DNA of 36,940 nt from an uncultured Sellimonas sp. Lineage in GTDB: Bacteria; Bacillota; Clostridia; Lachnospirales; Lachnospiraceae. The stretch is taken from positions 1 to 36,940 of the forward strand of contig CAJFMZ010000004.1 of assembly GCA_904393575.1 (NCBI GenBank), in the 5' to 3' direction. Both the position numbers and the translations under genes were made by a program. Each line of letters starts with the position of its first letter. Position 1 is the stretch's first letter. This document shows, piece after piece, positions 7,894 through 13,586 of this stretch. The notes beneath the pieces are model-generated. The model was not told where the DNA came from. It searched no databases and saw nothing but the letters and a program-made list of their open reading frames with translations.

Positions 7894-9135
7894 TTACTCT
7901 TTCACCTGCATTTCATACTGTTTCCACACTTTATCCGCTAAATCCGAAAGGAATTTGTCCCATCCGTTGTCCGGCTCTATTCCCCATTCTACAGTTTCCC
8001 GGATATTCGATATCATCGCCCTTTCCGCATCTGTAATAAAATATGCTCCGTCCAGTTCTTCGAAGCTTTCTTCTACTGACGAAATTGTCGCCTCCGAACG
8101 GTCAGATAACCAGTTTTTAATCTCATTTTTTTCCACCGCAATTCCAGCGCTGCCACTGAGAACCTGGTCTACGTTTTCGCTTCCTTCTTCCTTTATCTTG
8201 TCATTTAAAAACAACATTAAGAACTCATATGCTTCTTCTTTCTGATCACTGGACATACCAACAGCTCCATAGGTCATAATGGACGCCATCTTTCTTCCTT
8301 CTAAATCCGGAATGATTTTTGCAAAAGCCTCTTCTCCTCCGATAAATGAGCGAACCGGCTGAATTTGATATTGCTCTTCCATATTATCTGCCGCATCCGG
8401 AATCTCTTCCTGTCGGAACCGCATGTACGTTTTTGCAAAGGTCGCCCATTTTTCTTTATCAAATAAAACCTGCTGTGCTTCATAATCCGCTGCCGGCTGA
8501 AACCATCGTCCTGATGTCAAATATAAACTTCCATTGATTGCTTCTTTTAATCCGGAATCATCCAGTTGTTCCGCCTGTTCTAGCCATTCACCTAGCGTAT
8601 CCCCTGTTATGTTTTCAATGTCGTTTGTTCCTGATAATACATAATAATAGCAGGAAAGCGGAATCATATATTGCTTTCCGTCATACTGTCCTGCATTTAA
8701 AATTTTCTCATTATAGGTCGTATCTTCCCAATAAGAGTCTGTCTCCATATATTTATCTAACGGAGCCAGCACTCCACTTTGCATCGTTTGGTATGGATTC
8801 GCAAATAGTTCTGTTTTCATCTCCGCCGCATCCGGACTGGTATCCAGCAAATATACATCTGCACCTTTCCCCGCCATAATCTGTGTTTGAAGTTTTTGAA
8901 TTTCCGAATCACGCCCCTCTTCCTTAGAAGGAAGTACCTTCACTTTTATCTCGATCTCTTCCGTTTTCATCATAAAATCAGCGATACTATTTACTTCTTT
9001 TTGAATAGAAGGATCTGTAATTACATTCAGTACTGTTTTATCTTGTTTCTCTTTTTGCTTCTCGCATCCGTCCATTCCTACCAACAGCATTCCAGCACAT
9101 CCTAAAATAATGATTTTTCCTGCTATGTTTTTCAT
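7894..9135 (-). CDS. Extracellular solute-binding lipoprotein (family 1-like)
   Basis: Signal peptide with lipobox-like LLVGMDGC, then TVLNVITDPSIQKEVNSIADFM...; overall SBP-like composition. Confidence 0.7.
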   Translation of the reverse strand: MKNIAGKIIILGCAGMLLVGMDGCEKQKEKQDKTVLNVITDPSIQKEVNSIADFMMKTEEIEIKVKVLPSKEEGRDSEIQKLQTQIMAGKGADVYLLDTSPDAAEMKTELFANPYQTMQSGVLAPLDKYMETDSYWEDTTYNEKILNAGQYDGKQYMIPLSCYYYVLSGTNDIENITGDTLGEWLEQAEQLDDSGLKEAINGSLYLTSGRWFQPAADYEAQQVLFDKEKWATFAKTYMRFRQEEIPDAADNMEEQYQIQPVRSFIGGEEAFAKIIPDLEGRKMASIMTYGAVGMSSDQKEEAYEFLMLFLNDKIKEEGSENVDQVLSGSAGIAVEKNEIKNWLSDRSEATISSVEESFEELDGAYFITDAERAMISNIRETVEWGIEPDNGWDKFLSDLADKVWKQYEMQVKE

Positions 9136-9204: not shown

Positions 9205-9505
9205 TAAAAAGAATGTTTAGAATACTTTTAATATATTTGCTATTTACAATAAAAATATTCTATTTTGATTATTTTCAGCTAATTCTACTTTGAGTACATT
9301 TCTTTCAATGATTAATTGTGCCCCGTACATTGTACGCGCGTTTCTGTAGTTGTGCCTACTGTGTAACCATTAGTCTTATCCACCTTCTGGCATTTATTCT
9401 AATATTAAATTTTAAAATACACCGGTATCACCTCATTCCTTCTTTTTTCCGTTATGTTTATGTTAGTTATACTTTAATTCATCAGCATTATTTTTTTCAA
9501 TATTT

Positions 9506-9540
9506 TGTCCATGACTCTAAATTTTCTGTCCTCTAATTTT
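9506..9540 (-). promoter_or_regulatory. Second predicted LytTR-type direct-repeat operator
   Basis: Minus strand AAAATTAGAGGACA...GTCATGGACA with 21-bp spacing, followed at the same offset as the first operator by GAAAAAAAT. Confidence 0.45.
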
Positions 9541-9615
9541 AATTTTTCTTGTTTTTAGACTATTCCTATGAAAAATAAAGTAAAATCCCTCCATATCCAC
9601 TCATAATCCCCGGAT

Positions 9616-10626
9616 TCAATCTCTCCTGTGGAAGTAATCGGAATTTGTCCATAGAAAGAGCTGTTCTCCCAGCCGTCTATAATACTGATGGATATCTTGT
9701 TCCGATTCACAGCTTTGATATTCCACGATTTCACACCAGCTATGGTCGCAACGGGATAAAATTGTATAATGATATTGGCTTGTTCCCGTTCTCTCACTGA
9801 TCCAGTCCAGAAGCCTTGTGAAAAACTCTTCGTTCTCCATAGATCGAGGTTTTAAAAACAGTCTCTTCCCATTTTCCAGACAGATTTTCAATACTTCTTT
9901 TCCGCCATGATGCAGATCAGATAATCCAGATACTATCCCTGTGATCCTGCCAGGACCTTCTCCCTCAAAAAAGAGTTTCCCAATTTTATCATAATCTTCC
10001 TGAAACCACTGCATCACCTGTACATAATACTGAATCTGACTCTCCATACGATCCCGGATACATCGAATCAAAACCGGATAGTTATCTGCGATATGATAGA
10101 AAAACTCTTTACTTCCACATTGTTTGCAAAAGTCCTCATACTGCTCCTTCGCATCCACTCCCTTTAACATTCCCTTCTGTTTGCGGCCATGCATTTCCGC
10201 AATCAAGGTGCGGAGCGCAATGTTTTGCAGACGGACAGCCAGCTCATCCGCAAAATCTCTATATACGTTCGGAGTGATCTTCTCTTTCATAGTATTTAAC
10301 TGAAGTTTTAATTCCTCTATCCCTGTTATTAAAAAAGACTGATAAAATTCTGCAAAGAACAGTTTCGTCTCTCCTATGTTTCTGCGTATCTCATTTGACG
10401 GATCATTCCATTCTCTATATTCCACACGCAAGCTTCCCATGTAAGTCCCTTCTTTTCGCCCAAATATCTGCTCTTCCAGATATGCCTGAAAGGCAGAATA
10501 TCTCTTTTGAAGTTTCGCCACCAAATCTTCTCCTAAAAGCTGATCCCAGTATTGTTTTTTCTTATCATTGACTGGTTTTTCTTGATCATTTCTATAATCT
10601 CTTTCCCACAAATAAGTATCTTTCAT
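9616..10626 (-). pseudogene. Truncated class II lanthipeptide synthetase LanM (N-terminal dehydratase, DUF4135-type)
   Basis: ORF with LanM features (GRITGIVSGLSDLHHGGKEVLKICLENGKRLFLKPRSMENEEFFTRLLDWI...YYRRLGEQLFL) ending in WTNSDYFHRRD*, where the TDxHxEN catalytic motif is expected. ATG at 10626 has RBS GGAGGAATTT. Confidence 0.7.
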
Positions 10627-10637
10627 AAATTCCTCCG

Positions 10638-10668
10638 AAAAAAACAGGATGCTCACATGAACATCCTG
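10638..10668 (-). terminator. Hairpin/attenuator between precursor gene and lanM
   Basis: CAGGATGTTCATGTGAGCATCCTG followed by TTTTTTT on the minus strand. Confidence 0.7.
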
Positions 10669-10680
10669 CTTTATAAATAA

Positions 10681-10830
10681 TTAGCAACAGAAAATTGTTA
10701 AAAAGGATTCTCCAGCTGGATTAGTAAAACGCTCTATTGCTTTTGCCAATTCCAGATCTTGTATTCCGTTTATTTCTTTTAATTCGCTTTTTAAGTCTCC
10801 GGCAGTATACAAATACTCTTCTTGCTTCAT
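10681..10830 (-). CDS. Putative lanthipeptide precursor, 49 aa
   Basis: MKQEEYLYTAGDLKSELKEINGIQDLELAKAIERFTNPAGESFLTIFCC*; acidic leader-like N-terminus and Thr/Ser/Cys-containing C-terminus ending CC, directly before lanM. Below the length threshold of the ORF track. Confidence 0.65.
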   Translation of the reverse strand: MKQEEYLYTAGDLKSELKEINGIQDLELAKAIERFTNPAGESFLTIFCC

Positions 10831-12161
10831 ATTTCGTTTCTCCTTGCCTCTAATCTCCAAAATGTAATGGTTACTATAAATTCTCTTTCGCGGATCTGAT
10901 AAGAAAAGTCTCCTTCGTATTGACGGACAATCTTCTGTACACTTTTGATCCCATATCCATGCAGCTGATGATTTTGTTTATTAGTAATCAATTTTCCCTC
11001 TTGTTCTGACGGTCTGTCTTTGATACTGTTGGAAATGGTAAGATAAAGCATTTCAGATTTTCGTGTAATATGTATCTCAATCCACCGTCTATCGTCCTGA
11101 ATGTTCTCACAGGCTTCAATTGCGTTATCCAAAAGATTGCTGAATAGTGCGCAGATTTCCATATCCGAAAAAGGCAGTTCTCCAATTCGATCCGCTCGGA
11201 TGCGAAATTTGATCCCCTTTGACTCTGCTTTTGTCTTTTTCTGTTCCAGAAGTGTATCCAAAATTCCTATTTGAGTCCACATAGCCTTTTGGGATACCAA
11301 AATATCATCCGATAACTCGTTAAGATATGACATCAGCAGATCCCATTTTTTCTCCTGTCCATACTCACGCATAATCAGCAGATGATGCTTCATATCATGT
11401 GTCTGTATTCTGTTTTTTTCCATCATGATTTCCATTTCTTTTATATGATTCTTAGACAGTGTTCCCAGTTCCGACAGCATTTCATTTTCTGTTTTCAATA
11501 TTTGAAAACGATGAAAAAACACAAAAACACCTGCTGTCAACACACTCACAAACACCATCGAAACTGCCGCTCCCAGTCCTTGTGCTCTTCTGGCACCCGT
11601 TACCATATTCATCATTGTTGCCATGTAGATCCTCAAAATTCCTATAAATATGGCACAAAGGAGTGCAAGCGTCTTTCTGTCCCCTTTCAAAACCAAGTTT
11701 TTATCTTGCCATTTCAACAAAAGTAGAGCTACACCTGCTCTTGGTATCAAAAACAATACACATTGCACCATGGATTGTGAAAACTTATAAATCTCTTCCC
11801 AAAATTGTTTTCCGATTATTTCCATACTGATAAATCCGCAGAAAAAATCCATCAAAGCAAGAATTGTATAAAATAGAATAATGATTTCTATCTTAATTAA
11901 CATATTCTTTTTCTCTACAATCCAGGCACAGAGTAATGTAGATAAAATAATAAATACAAACATAGTACTAGAGAAAAAAAGAATTTTTCGATTGATCCCT
12001 AACAGGATGCCTGCCCCCAGAATATTCCCCCATACCAACACTTTCTGCCAATTCCGCAGATATTTCTTTTCCAGCACTGTCCGGTATAATACCTGATAGC
12101 ACATCCATACCTCACAGATGGAAAGCAGAATCAGTACTATGACGTGGATTTGCCGTTCCAT
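10827..12161 (-). CDS. AgrC/HPK10-like sensor histidine kinase (GHKL)
   Basis: Multi-TM N-terminus, THDMKHHLLIM H-box-like, FSNLLDNAIEAC N-box, HGYGIKSVQKIV G-box. Confidence 0.85.
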   Translation of the reverse strand: MERQIHVIVLILLSICEVWMCYQVLYRTVLEKKYLRNWQKVLVWGNILGAGILLGINRKILFFSSTMFVFIILSTLLCAWIVEKKNMLIKIEIIILFYTILALMDFFCGFISMEIIGKQFWEEIYKFSQSMVQCVLFLIPRAGVALLLLKWQDKNLVLKGDRKTLALLCAIFIGILRIYMATMMNMVTGARRAQGLGAAVSMVFVSVLTAGVFVFFHRFQILKTENEMLSELGTLSKNHIKEMEIMMEKNRIQTHDMKHHLLIMREYGQEKKWDLLMSYLNELSDDILVSQKAMWTQIGILDTLLEQKKTKAESKGIKFRIRADRIGELPFSDMEICALFSNLLDNAIEACENIQDDRRWIEIHITRKSEMLYLTISNSIKDRPSEQEGKLITNKQNHQLHGYGIKSVQKIVRQYEGDFSYQIREREFIVTITFWRLEARRNEI

Positions 12162-12901
12162 TCCCGTTCCCTCCAGTAATCATCAATTTTTTTCTTTGCA
12201 GCATCAATCCGGTATTGGTTCAGCTCAAGTTTGTAGTCTTCCTCCATGTAGATCATATTGTCCTGAATTCCCCGGACATTTCGGAGGCTGATAATATTAC
12301 TTCGATCTACAAGAAAAAATTCCTTACTGTCCAGCTTTTCCATTAACCTGCTCAAAGAAATCCGTTCTCTGAAGGTTCCCTGGAATGTCACATATTCTGC
12401 ATTTTTTCCCATCTTTTTCTTATGGATATAAATGATTTCGCGGAAATAAATTTTCTGCGGTTTTTCCTCCGGCTCATCCTCGCGTTTCAGCATCAGATAT
12501 TCATTTTTCTCTGCGCCCATCCGATACATGAGCTTTTCCAGAATCCGCGGCAGTCTTTCCTCCATCTGGGTTTTCAGGATATATTGGTCTGCCTCGATTT
12601 CATAGCTTTCCAGTGCAAATTCCGTATGGGACGTCAGGAACACAAGTCCACGATTCGGGTAGGTTTTCCGCAGAAGCCTTCCAAACTCAAGTCCGGTCAT
12701 TCCATTTCCTAGTTCGATGTCCACGAAAAAGATATCCCCTTCCTCTCCGTATTCCTTTGTCTTCGCATACTCCAGAAATGCTTCTCCCGATGGGAAAACC
12801 AGAAGTTGTGTACTCAGAAATCGGTCCGCTGTCTCTTTGATTTTGTCCCGAATCATATCCTGCATCCGTTTATCGTCATCTACAATTACAATGTTAAGCA
12901 T
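12137..12901 (-). CDS. LytTR-family response regulator (AgrA-like)
   Basis: MLNIVIVDDDKRMQDMI receiver domain; C-terminal IYFREIIYIHKKKMGKNAEYVTFQGTFRERISLSRLMEKLDSKEFFLVDRSNIISLRNV, a LytTR signature. Confidence 0.9.
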   Translation of the reverse strand: MLNIVIVDDDKRMQDMIRDKIKETADRFLSTQLLVFPSGEAFLEYAKTKEYGEEGDIFFVDIELGNGMTGLEFGRLLRKTYPNRGLVFLTSHTEFALESYEIEADQYILKTQMEERLPRILEKLMYRMGAEKNEYLMLKREDEPEEKPQKIYFREIIYIHKKKMGKNAEYVTFQGTFRERISLSRLMEKLDSKEFFLVDRSNIISLRNVRGIQDNMIYMEEDYKLELNQYRIDAAKKKIDDYWREREWNGKSTS

Positions 12902-13469
12902 GTGTCTCCTCCTTCAACAGCAGATAGTATTGATTATTGTTCACATCGTGAAAAACAGCTTCTCCATTCCGTATCTGAAGCCGGAAAGTATGTTCCCACA
13001 GTCCTTCCTCTCCATCTACGGCTATTTCCCTCCCGCAGTGATAAAGGGAGTCGCCTTCTTCCTGTTCATTCACTTTCCGTATGATATCCTCTACCGCCTC
13101 TGTGATCTTCATGGAATGGCGGGCCGGATTCCATCTGCCGAGCAGCCGGTTGATTCTTGTTTTGTTGACTACGATTTCTTTGCAGAATGCTTTTCGAAAC
13201 GCTTTTCTCACCTCCTTATCTGCTTCCAGCAGATCGAAGGCCCGCTCTGACTGGTCTTTGATATCCTCATAGGGAAATCCCAGCTCTCCATATACCCTCA
13301 TGTGGCAAAGCGCTTTTCGGAGATCCGCCTCTTCCTTCCGCTGTTCATACCGTCCAAGGAGCCACCGGATACTCTCCATCAGGATCTCCCGGCACAAGAA
13401 CGCATCGGTTCTGTAAAACCTTGAGACCGCCAGTTTGATTCCTTCGATTTCCACCTTACTGCACTTCAT
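12894..13469 (-). CDS. Hypothetical protein, first gene of the regulatory operon
   Basis: 191-aa ORF whose 3' end overlaps the response regulator start by 8 nt. Confidence 0.6.
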   Translation of the reverse strand: MKCSKVEIEGIKLAVSRFYRTDAFLCREILMESIRWLLGRYEQRKEEADLRKALCHMRVYGELGFPYEDIKDQSERAFDLLEADKEVRKAFRKAFCKEIVVNKTRINRLLGRWNPARHSMKITEAVEDIIRKVNEQEEGDSLYHCGREIAVDGEEGLWEHTFRLQIRNGEAVFHDVNNNQYYLLLKEETHA

Positions 13470-13517
13470 TCTTTTTCACTCCTGTTCCCTCTTCCCACTA
13501 TCTTTTGTCCCCTCAAA

Positions 13518-13586
13518 ATTGTACTACATTTCCCGATTTTTTTCGCCCTTCTGTCCTCGAAATCTCCATTTTTGTCCTCGAAATCT
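13518..13586 (-). promoter_or_regulatory. LytTR-type direct-repeat operator plus promoter
   Basis: Minus strand AGATTTCGAGGACA twice (13573-13586, 13552-13565), 21 bp apart; -10-like TACAAT at 13518-13523; expected -35 position reads GCGAAA. Confidence 0.7.

Follow-up and report, generated by a model that had tools for sequence, protein, structure and literature searches.

A putative autoinducing class II lanthipeptide signalling cassette of Lachnospiraceae, present as a relic in an uncultured Sellimonas sp.

Gene order at the locus

We analysed a stretch of 36,940 nucleotides from an uncultured Sellimonas sp. (GenBank assembly GCA_904393575.1, contig CAJFMZ010000004.1, positions 1 to 36,940 of the forward strand), hereafter the window. 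Its minus strand carries a cassette in the order 191-aa protein gene, response regulator (RR) gene, histidine kinase (HK) gene, lanA and lanM. The features of the locus, some of them recognised by comparison with Drancourtella massiliensis (An770; locus L004), are as follows.

13552..13582 (-), operator TTCGAGGACA-N11-TTCGAGGACA with a 21-bp period, upstream of the cassette; the sole perfect match in the window's genome
13518..13523 (-), TACAAT, putative -10-like hexamer 28 nt past the operator (sequence)
12894..13469 (-), gene for a 191-aa protein, the first of the cassette, present at 13 of 18 loci
12137..12901 (-), LytTR response regulator with receiver and LytTR DNA-binding domains (Pfam PF00072, PF04397)
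10827..12161 (-), AgrC-like histidine kinase with GHKL ATPase (Pfam PF14501)
10840..10845 (-), AAGGAG, Shine-Dalgarno-like site of the peptide gene, within the end of the kinase gene (sequence)
10681..10830 (-), lanA-like precursor gene, 49 aa, C-terminal SFLTIFCC (18-member family, alignment, dN/dS)
10641..10672 (-), terminator- or attenuator-like hairpin between lanA and lanM, followed by a T run (dG -18.9 kcal/mol)
9616..10626 (-), lanM remnant: start and first part of the dehydratase, 336 codons, out of frame past a junction near 9653 (TIGR03897 positions 1-235 of 932)
9566..9653 (-), last ~30 codons of lanM, out of frame after a loss of ~1.96 kb (aligns to the 3' end of L004 lanM from 12462)
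9506..9536 (-), second operator with one mutated repeat, GTCATGGACA; the intact D. massiliensis copy precedes the next gene
9423..9505 (-), leftover promoter and ribosome-binding site of a lost downstream target gene (alignment to D. massiliensis)

In window coordinates, the 191-aa reading frame overlaps the RR gene by 8 nt and the RR gene overlaps the HK gene by 25 nt, and the TGA of the kinase gene (10829-10827) and the ATG of the peptide gene (10830-10828) share the 4-nt sequence ATGA. These overlaps at the minus-strand junctions had been given in a first-pass annotation and are exact; the peptide at 10681-10830 (-) also reads as quoted there. The same annotation had singled out the ATGA coupling as a notable trait, a view that did not survive the comparison of loci. 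Between the kinase stop and the peptide start lie 17 nt in D. massiliensis and 13-14 nt in the other congener, with spacings of up to about 150 nt elsewhere; the gap carries an operator of its own in two relatives, and an overlap of the two genes was seen again at only one cassette locus (L063). In the window, moreover, the peptide gene is preceded by a Shine-Dalgarno-like sequence of its own. Because the gap between the kinase gene and lanA is not conserved, ATGA coupling was discarded as a cassette-defining feature, and judged by these alignments the junction in the window is a local accident, incidental to the cassette.

Outside the cassette genes, an inverted repeat (AAGCCATGTATT...AATACATGGCTT, 9220-9165) lies in the window directly before a gene for a 413-aa lipoprotein-like product (7894-9135, minus strand). 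At L004 (14891-16277), downstream of the D. massiliensis cassette, a gene for a Radical SAM/SPASM-like protein (409 aa) is followed by one for a small Cys-rich peptide, LCFGCRESCFLVSCEGTCSLNC; the pair looks like a separate RiPP locus. Further sets of the 191-aa, RR and HK genes occur at two other loci: one at L055 (10636-13000), about 2 kb past a complete lanA-lanM cassette, and one at L020 (G032:C5:4000-18000), which lacks lanA and lanM, precedes a gene for a small secreted protein and is possibly a receiver-only copy.

The 49-aa frame belongs to a family of LanA-like precursors

An initial search of 116 relatives for the peptide frame returned D. massiliensis An770, a second genome of the genus; a third congener has it as well, and both carry the frame at the same place. 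The three congener peptides have the leader AG[DE]L.xEL.E in common and an invariant C-terminal end, SFLT[IL].CC. A profile built from these three peptides brought up further copies in Lachnospiraceae, and a second one was built from 18 members, with 397 Lachnospiraceae genomes sampled. The 18-member profile detected 18 copies in 17 of the 397 genomes (~4%), all at E <= 3e-12 (9e-16 for the window copy), with a clear gap to the noise, which starts at E 9.6e-4. Among 397 genomes from elsewhere in the phylum no family member was found at E <= 0.01, besides four weak matches within longer frames. One earlier match, in G044 (L003), runs antisense to a Mg-chelatase-like gene; it dropped out with the better profile and was rejected as a relative.

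Throughout the family the leader motif AG[DN][LI]xxE is conserved and the C-terminal CC is invariant. Most members carry the ring motif [ST]x[ST]xxC, the window member being without the first ring motif, and most are missing a GG or GA before the core. At all 18 loci Ser/Thr and Cys occur in the C-terminal core of a peptide encoded beside lanM. The window peptide matched no NCBIfam or Pfam family; four of the 18 members match the plantaricin C family (NF000539) weakly, the best at E 0.0021, under the curated cut-off. No mention of the core strings was found in the open-access literature, a coverage outside which most subscription journals fall.

At each of the 18 loci, lanA adjoins lanM on its upstream side and is preceded by the HK and RR genes, the cassette of G208 being split across two contigs. 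Comparison of the window with D. massiliensis gave a dN/dS of 0.30 for the lanA frame. The homologues of the frame and its constant linkage to the HK gene and lanM rule out a chance open reading frame, and this conservation marks the 49-aa frame as a real gene, the genuine LanA of a recurrent minimal cassette. The first-pass annotation was therefore right to call the peptide a LanA-like precursor, given the leader motif, the invariant CC and the fixed spot before lanM, and we agree that it has no GG/GA cleavage site. That reading hinged on homologues with a conserved frame, which exist, and on a constant linkage to LytTR/HK and LanM, which holds at 18 loci. The further suggestion that the peptide might be the signal of the AgrC-like kinase gains weight, as it is the sole candidate signal beside that kinase.

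No LanT, protease, immunity gene or AgrB is common to the 18 loci compared, and no exporter or leader protease for the peptide was identified at them. Nor are other proteins shared across the loci, beyond the neighbours expected of close species and a generic ABC component at varying positions. A bifunctional C39-type exporter is absent from 14 of the 17 carrier genomes and lies away from the cassette in the remaining three. AgrB is likewise absent from 14 of the 17 and not near any cassette; in those 14, then, no AgrD-type signal competes.

Operator, promoter and hairpin

AgrA-type operators have two direct repeats spaced by about 21 bp, and the cassette operator is built in the same way, with the consensus TTNRRGGACA-N11-TTNRRGGACA and a period of exactly 21 bp. 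Near cassettes, the sense strand holds 10 pairs of GGACA exactly 21 bp apart, where 0.005 are expected per shuffle; this is the one spacing at which such pairs cluster. The motif occurs upstream of the cassette in several genera and past lanM in D. massiliensis, G032 and G208; the strict pattern is missing from some cassette loci. Within a genome the letters of the operators co-vary: both D. massiliensis sites read TTCGAGGACA, with one repeat there reading TTAGAGGACA, and both sites of G208 read TTCGCGGACA. The operator at 13552-13582 is the presumed site of the LytTR regulator. It is followed by the putative -10 element, at which TAGTACAAT is found also in D. massiliensis and G001; in an activator-dependent promoter, no -35 element is expected. 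Further targets in the window's genome were sought and set aside, one match lying within a 898-codon open frame and another being weak; both were taken as chance.

A hairpin between lanA and lanM recurs at most loci, its sequence differing between them, and would fit partial termination that leaves LanA in excess of LanM.

Several neighbourhoods of the operator have features of their own. In G208 (L056, contig C68), a cassette-type operator after lanM precedes a type VII secretion locus encoding an EsaA-like protein, YukD and YukC/EssB (E 1e-82 for the latter). At L053, L054 and L112 the operator is separated from the cassette by a divergent HTH regulator gene upstream of the 191-aa gene, and L051 has a similar divergent gene upstream of its 191-aa gene.

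Kinase, regulator and 191-aa protein

By hydropathy the kinase is predicted to span the membrane six times, and its H-box, HDMKHH, is AgrC-like. The dN/dS values are 0.145 for the HK gene, 0.154 for the RR gene and 0.145 for the 191-aa gene, so that these three genes, like lanA, have been held by purifying selection since the lineages diverged. Whether the peptide core co-evolves with the membrane domain of the kinase was tested, and no signal beyond background emerged (partial r 0.13, p 0.12).

Among 61 relatives searched, the 191-aa protein is almost confined to carriers of the cassette, the one exception being a weak match in G020. It matches no Pfam or NCBIfam family at cut-off, and its AF2 model (pLDDT 88) found no PDB match at E<=0.001.

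lanM is lost in the window and kept in most relatives

The first-pass annotation had implied a functional LanM partner; in the window this partner is broken by an out-of-frame deletion of ~1.96 kb, which had gone unnoticed there along with the tandem operator, the lanA-lanM hairpin and the lack of transporter, protease, immunity and AgrB genes. By alignment, the window lanM (start 10626) tracks the intact D. massiliensis gene to ~9653 and then jumps frame, and its score is 191 bits against the TIGR03897 cut-off of 304. Window positions 9653-9423 align to 12462-12686 of L004, and the similarity ends exactly at the start codon of the D. massiliensis gene beginning at 12688, which is operator-controlled there. 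In six intact relatives that were tested LanM scores 665-885 bits against the same cut-off, and the dehydratase and zinc motifs DxH, KP, WCHG and CHG are conserved in the intact copies.

An assembly artefact is disfavoured as the origin of the deletion, since the breakpoints show no obvious direct repeat in the intact relative and the adjoining second operator is mutated too. Supply of LanM in trans was rejected too, no other DUF4135 domain or LanM dehydratase being found in the window's 91%-complete assembly. With lanM deleted, no lanthionine product is possible from the window locus. As far as its sequence tells, the window cassette is a production-dead relic that has lost lanM and the downstream target but retains an intact sensor half and peptide. 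Two further loci have a damaged lanM beside an intact kinase and peptide, L051 through insertion sequences and L065 through truncation; at the remaining 15 of the 18 loci lanM is intact or near-intact. Damage at three loci suggests that some lineages can do without the modified product.

It is an even question whether the window copy is merely decaying, its peptide, kinase and regulator being leftovers that do nothing. Besides the loss of lanM and of the downstream gene, the mutated second operator and the lack of another DUF4135 protein speak for decay. However, all four upstream genes have intact frames and low dN/dS values, and the main operator matches perfectly. Possibly, the deletion is too recent for decay to show in the upstream genes. 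In any case, decay would account for the window genome alone and not for the 15 loci with an intact or near-intact lanM.

Comparison with known systems

The cassette resembles the ruminococcin A cluster, of the lacticin 481 group, in combining LanM, LanA and two-component regulators in a Lachnospiraceae host and in having a core that ends in CC. In Ruminococcus gnavus that cluster holds three copies of lanA, together with rumFEG for immunity and rumT/X for processing and export (PMC6071512). The cassette, in contrast, has no common immunity or export genes, opens with a 191-aa protein that matches no family, and encodes a peptide with no GG site and a shorter core not ending in FTCC. As in plantaricin C and mersacidin-type peptides (NF000539), the ring motif is found in most members; unlike them, the cassette peptides are without the conserved E/D before Cys and their leader is without GG. 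Like agrBDCA, the cassette places an AgrC-like multi-pass kinase and a LytTR regulator beside a small peptide, but it has LanA and LanM in place of AgrB and AgrD. A LanM-family gene is also tied to an Agr-type sensor system in the case of the CA_C0082 LanM-like proteins of Clostridium, which adjoin a complete agrBDCA, without lanA and without conserved catalytic residues (PMC10301443). The cassettes differ in that lanA is present and the LanM active sites are kept in the relatives.

A putative signalling circuit

We somewhat favour the view that the locus is an autoinducing class II lanthipeptide signalling cassette, a relic in the window genome. In intact relatives, LanM would dehydrate and cyclise the C-terminal core of ~9-17 residues ending in CC, and the modified peptide would most likely serve the neighbouring AgrC-like kinase as its dedicated autoinducer. 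The LytTR regulator would then bind the GGACA repeats of 21-bp period before the cassette, giving positive feedback, and in several species also those before the gene following lanM, giving an output; the hairpin between lanA and lanM may hold LanM below LanA. We infer ring formation, export, the ligand-receptor relation and operator binding. A signal function seems the most economical because the constant partners of the peptide are only a receptor, a regulator and a modifying enzyme, and the gene content would thus favour a signal rather than an antimicrobial. The adjacency of these genes could instead mean regulation of an antimicrobial and not a pure signal. The damaged lanM copies, the co-evolution result and the failure to identify an exporter or leader protease also weigh against the signalling reading.

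It seems unlikely that the product is an ordinary self-inducing antimicrobial lantibiotic (lacticin 481- or mersacidin-like) that acts as nisin does, with signalling secondary. The core, [ST]x[ST]xxC...CC, does resemble those of class II lantibiotics, and four members weakly match plantaricin C; lantibiotic clusters also often include two-component regulators, rumRK of ruminococcin A being an example (PMC6071512). However, published class II peptides are described as having GG/GA, FTCC ends and the motif TVSx[ED]C (PMC13289728), and the present family lacks both the GG/GA site and the FTCC end, the E/D of that motif being mostly absent. The lack of common immunity genes or LanT, together with the C39 exporter missing from 14 of the 17 genomes, also counts against an antimicrobial.

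Quite improbable, in our view, is that the window species is a receiver without a sender that eavesdrops on the lanthipeptides of relatives through its kept kinase and regulator. The intact sensor half beside a lost producer half, recurring at L051 and L065, would fit such a role, as would the 191-aa, RR and HK set of G032, which has a perfect operator and neither lanA nor lanM. However, lanM is the longest gene and about half of the cassette, so that three lanM lesions need no selection. Moreover, only the cassette's own promoter retains a perfect operator in the window, which leaves no evident output. A peptide that has nothing to do with LanM and works in unmodified form, for example as a linear or disulfide signal, is very improbable: the frame is intact in the window genome without LanM, but the invariant CC after Ser/Thr, the strict adjacency to lanM at every locus and the preserved LanM active sites all argue against it.

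More broadly, and tentatively, the autoinducing cassette may represent a lanthipeptide quorum sensing of Lachnospiraceae. LanA and LanM would replace AgrD and AgrB, a ligand with a GG-less leader, exported without LanT, would act on the AgrC-like kinase, and the LytTR regulator would activate the cassette and a species-specific output. As part of the same tentative reading, the outputs could be small secreted proteins, a secreted C39-like peptidase or, in one species, the type VII secretion locus. Genes for small secreted proteins of 134-162 aa, of differing families (one DUF2712), lie just after lanM at L055, L058, L059 and L064 and are possible outputs.

Genome mining as now practised would overlook both the precursor family and the 191-aa protein, since neither reaches the cut-off of any curated model. 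The cultured carrier D. massiliensis makes the cassette directly testable. Lanthipeptides are known mainly as antimicrobials that are sometimes self-inducing. A minimal LanA/LanM pair joined to an Agr-type sensor, with its own operator and no genes for export, cleavage or immunity, points to lanthipeptides that may serve primarily as signals in abundant gut bacteria.
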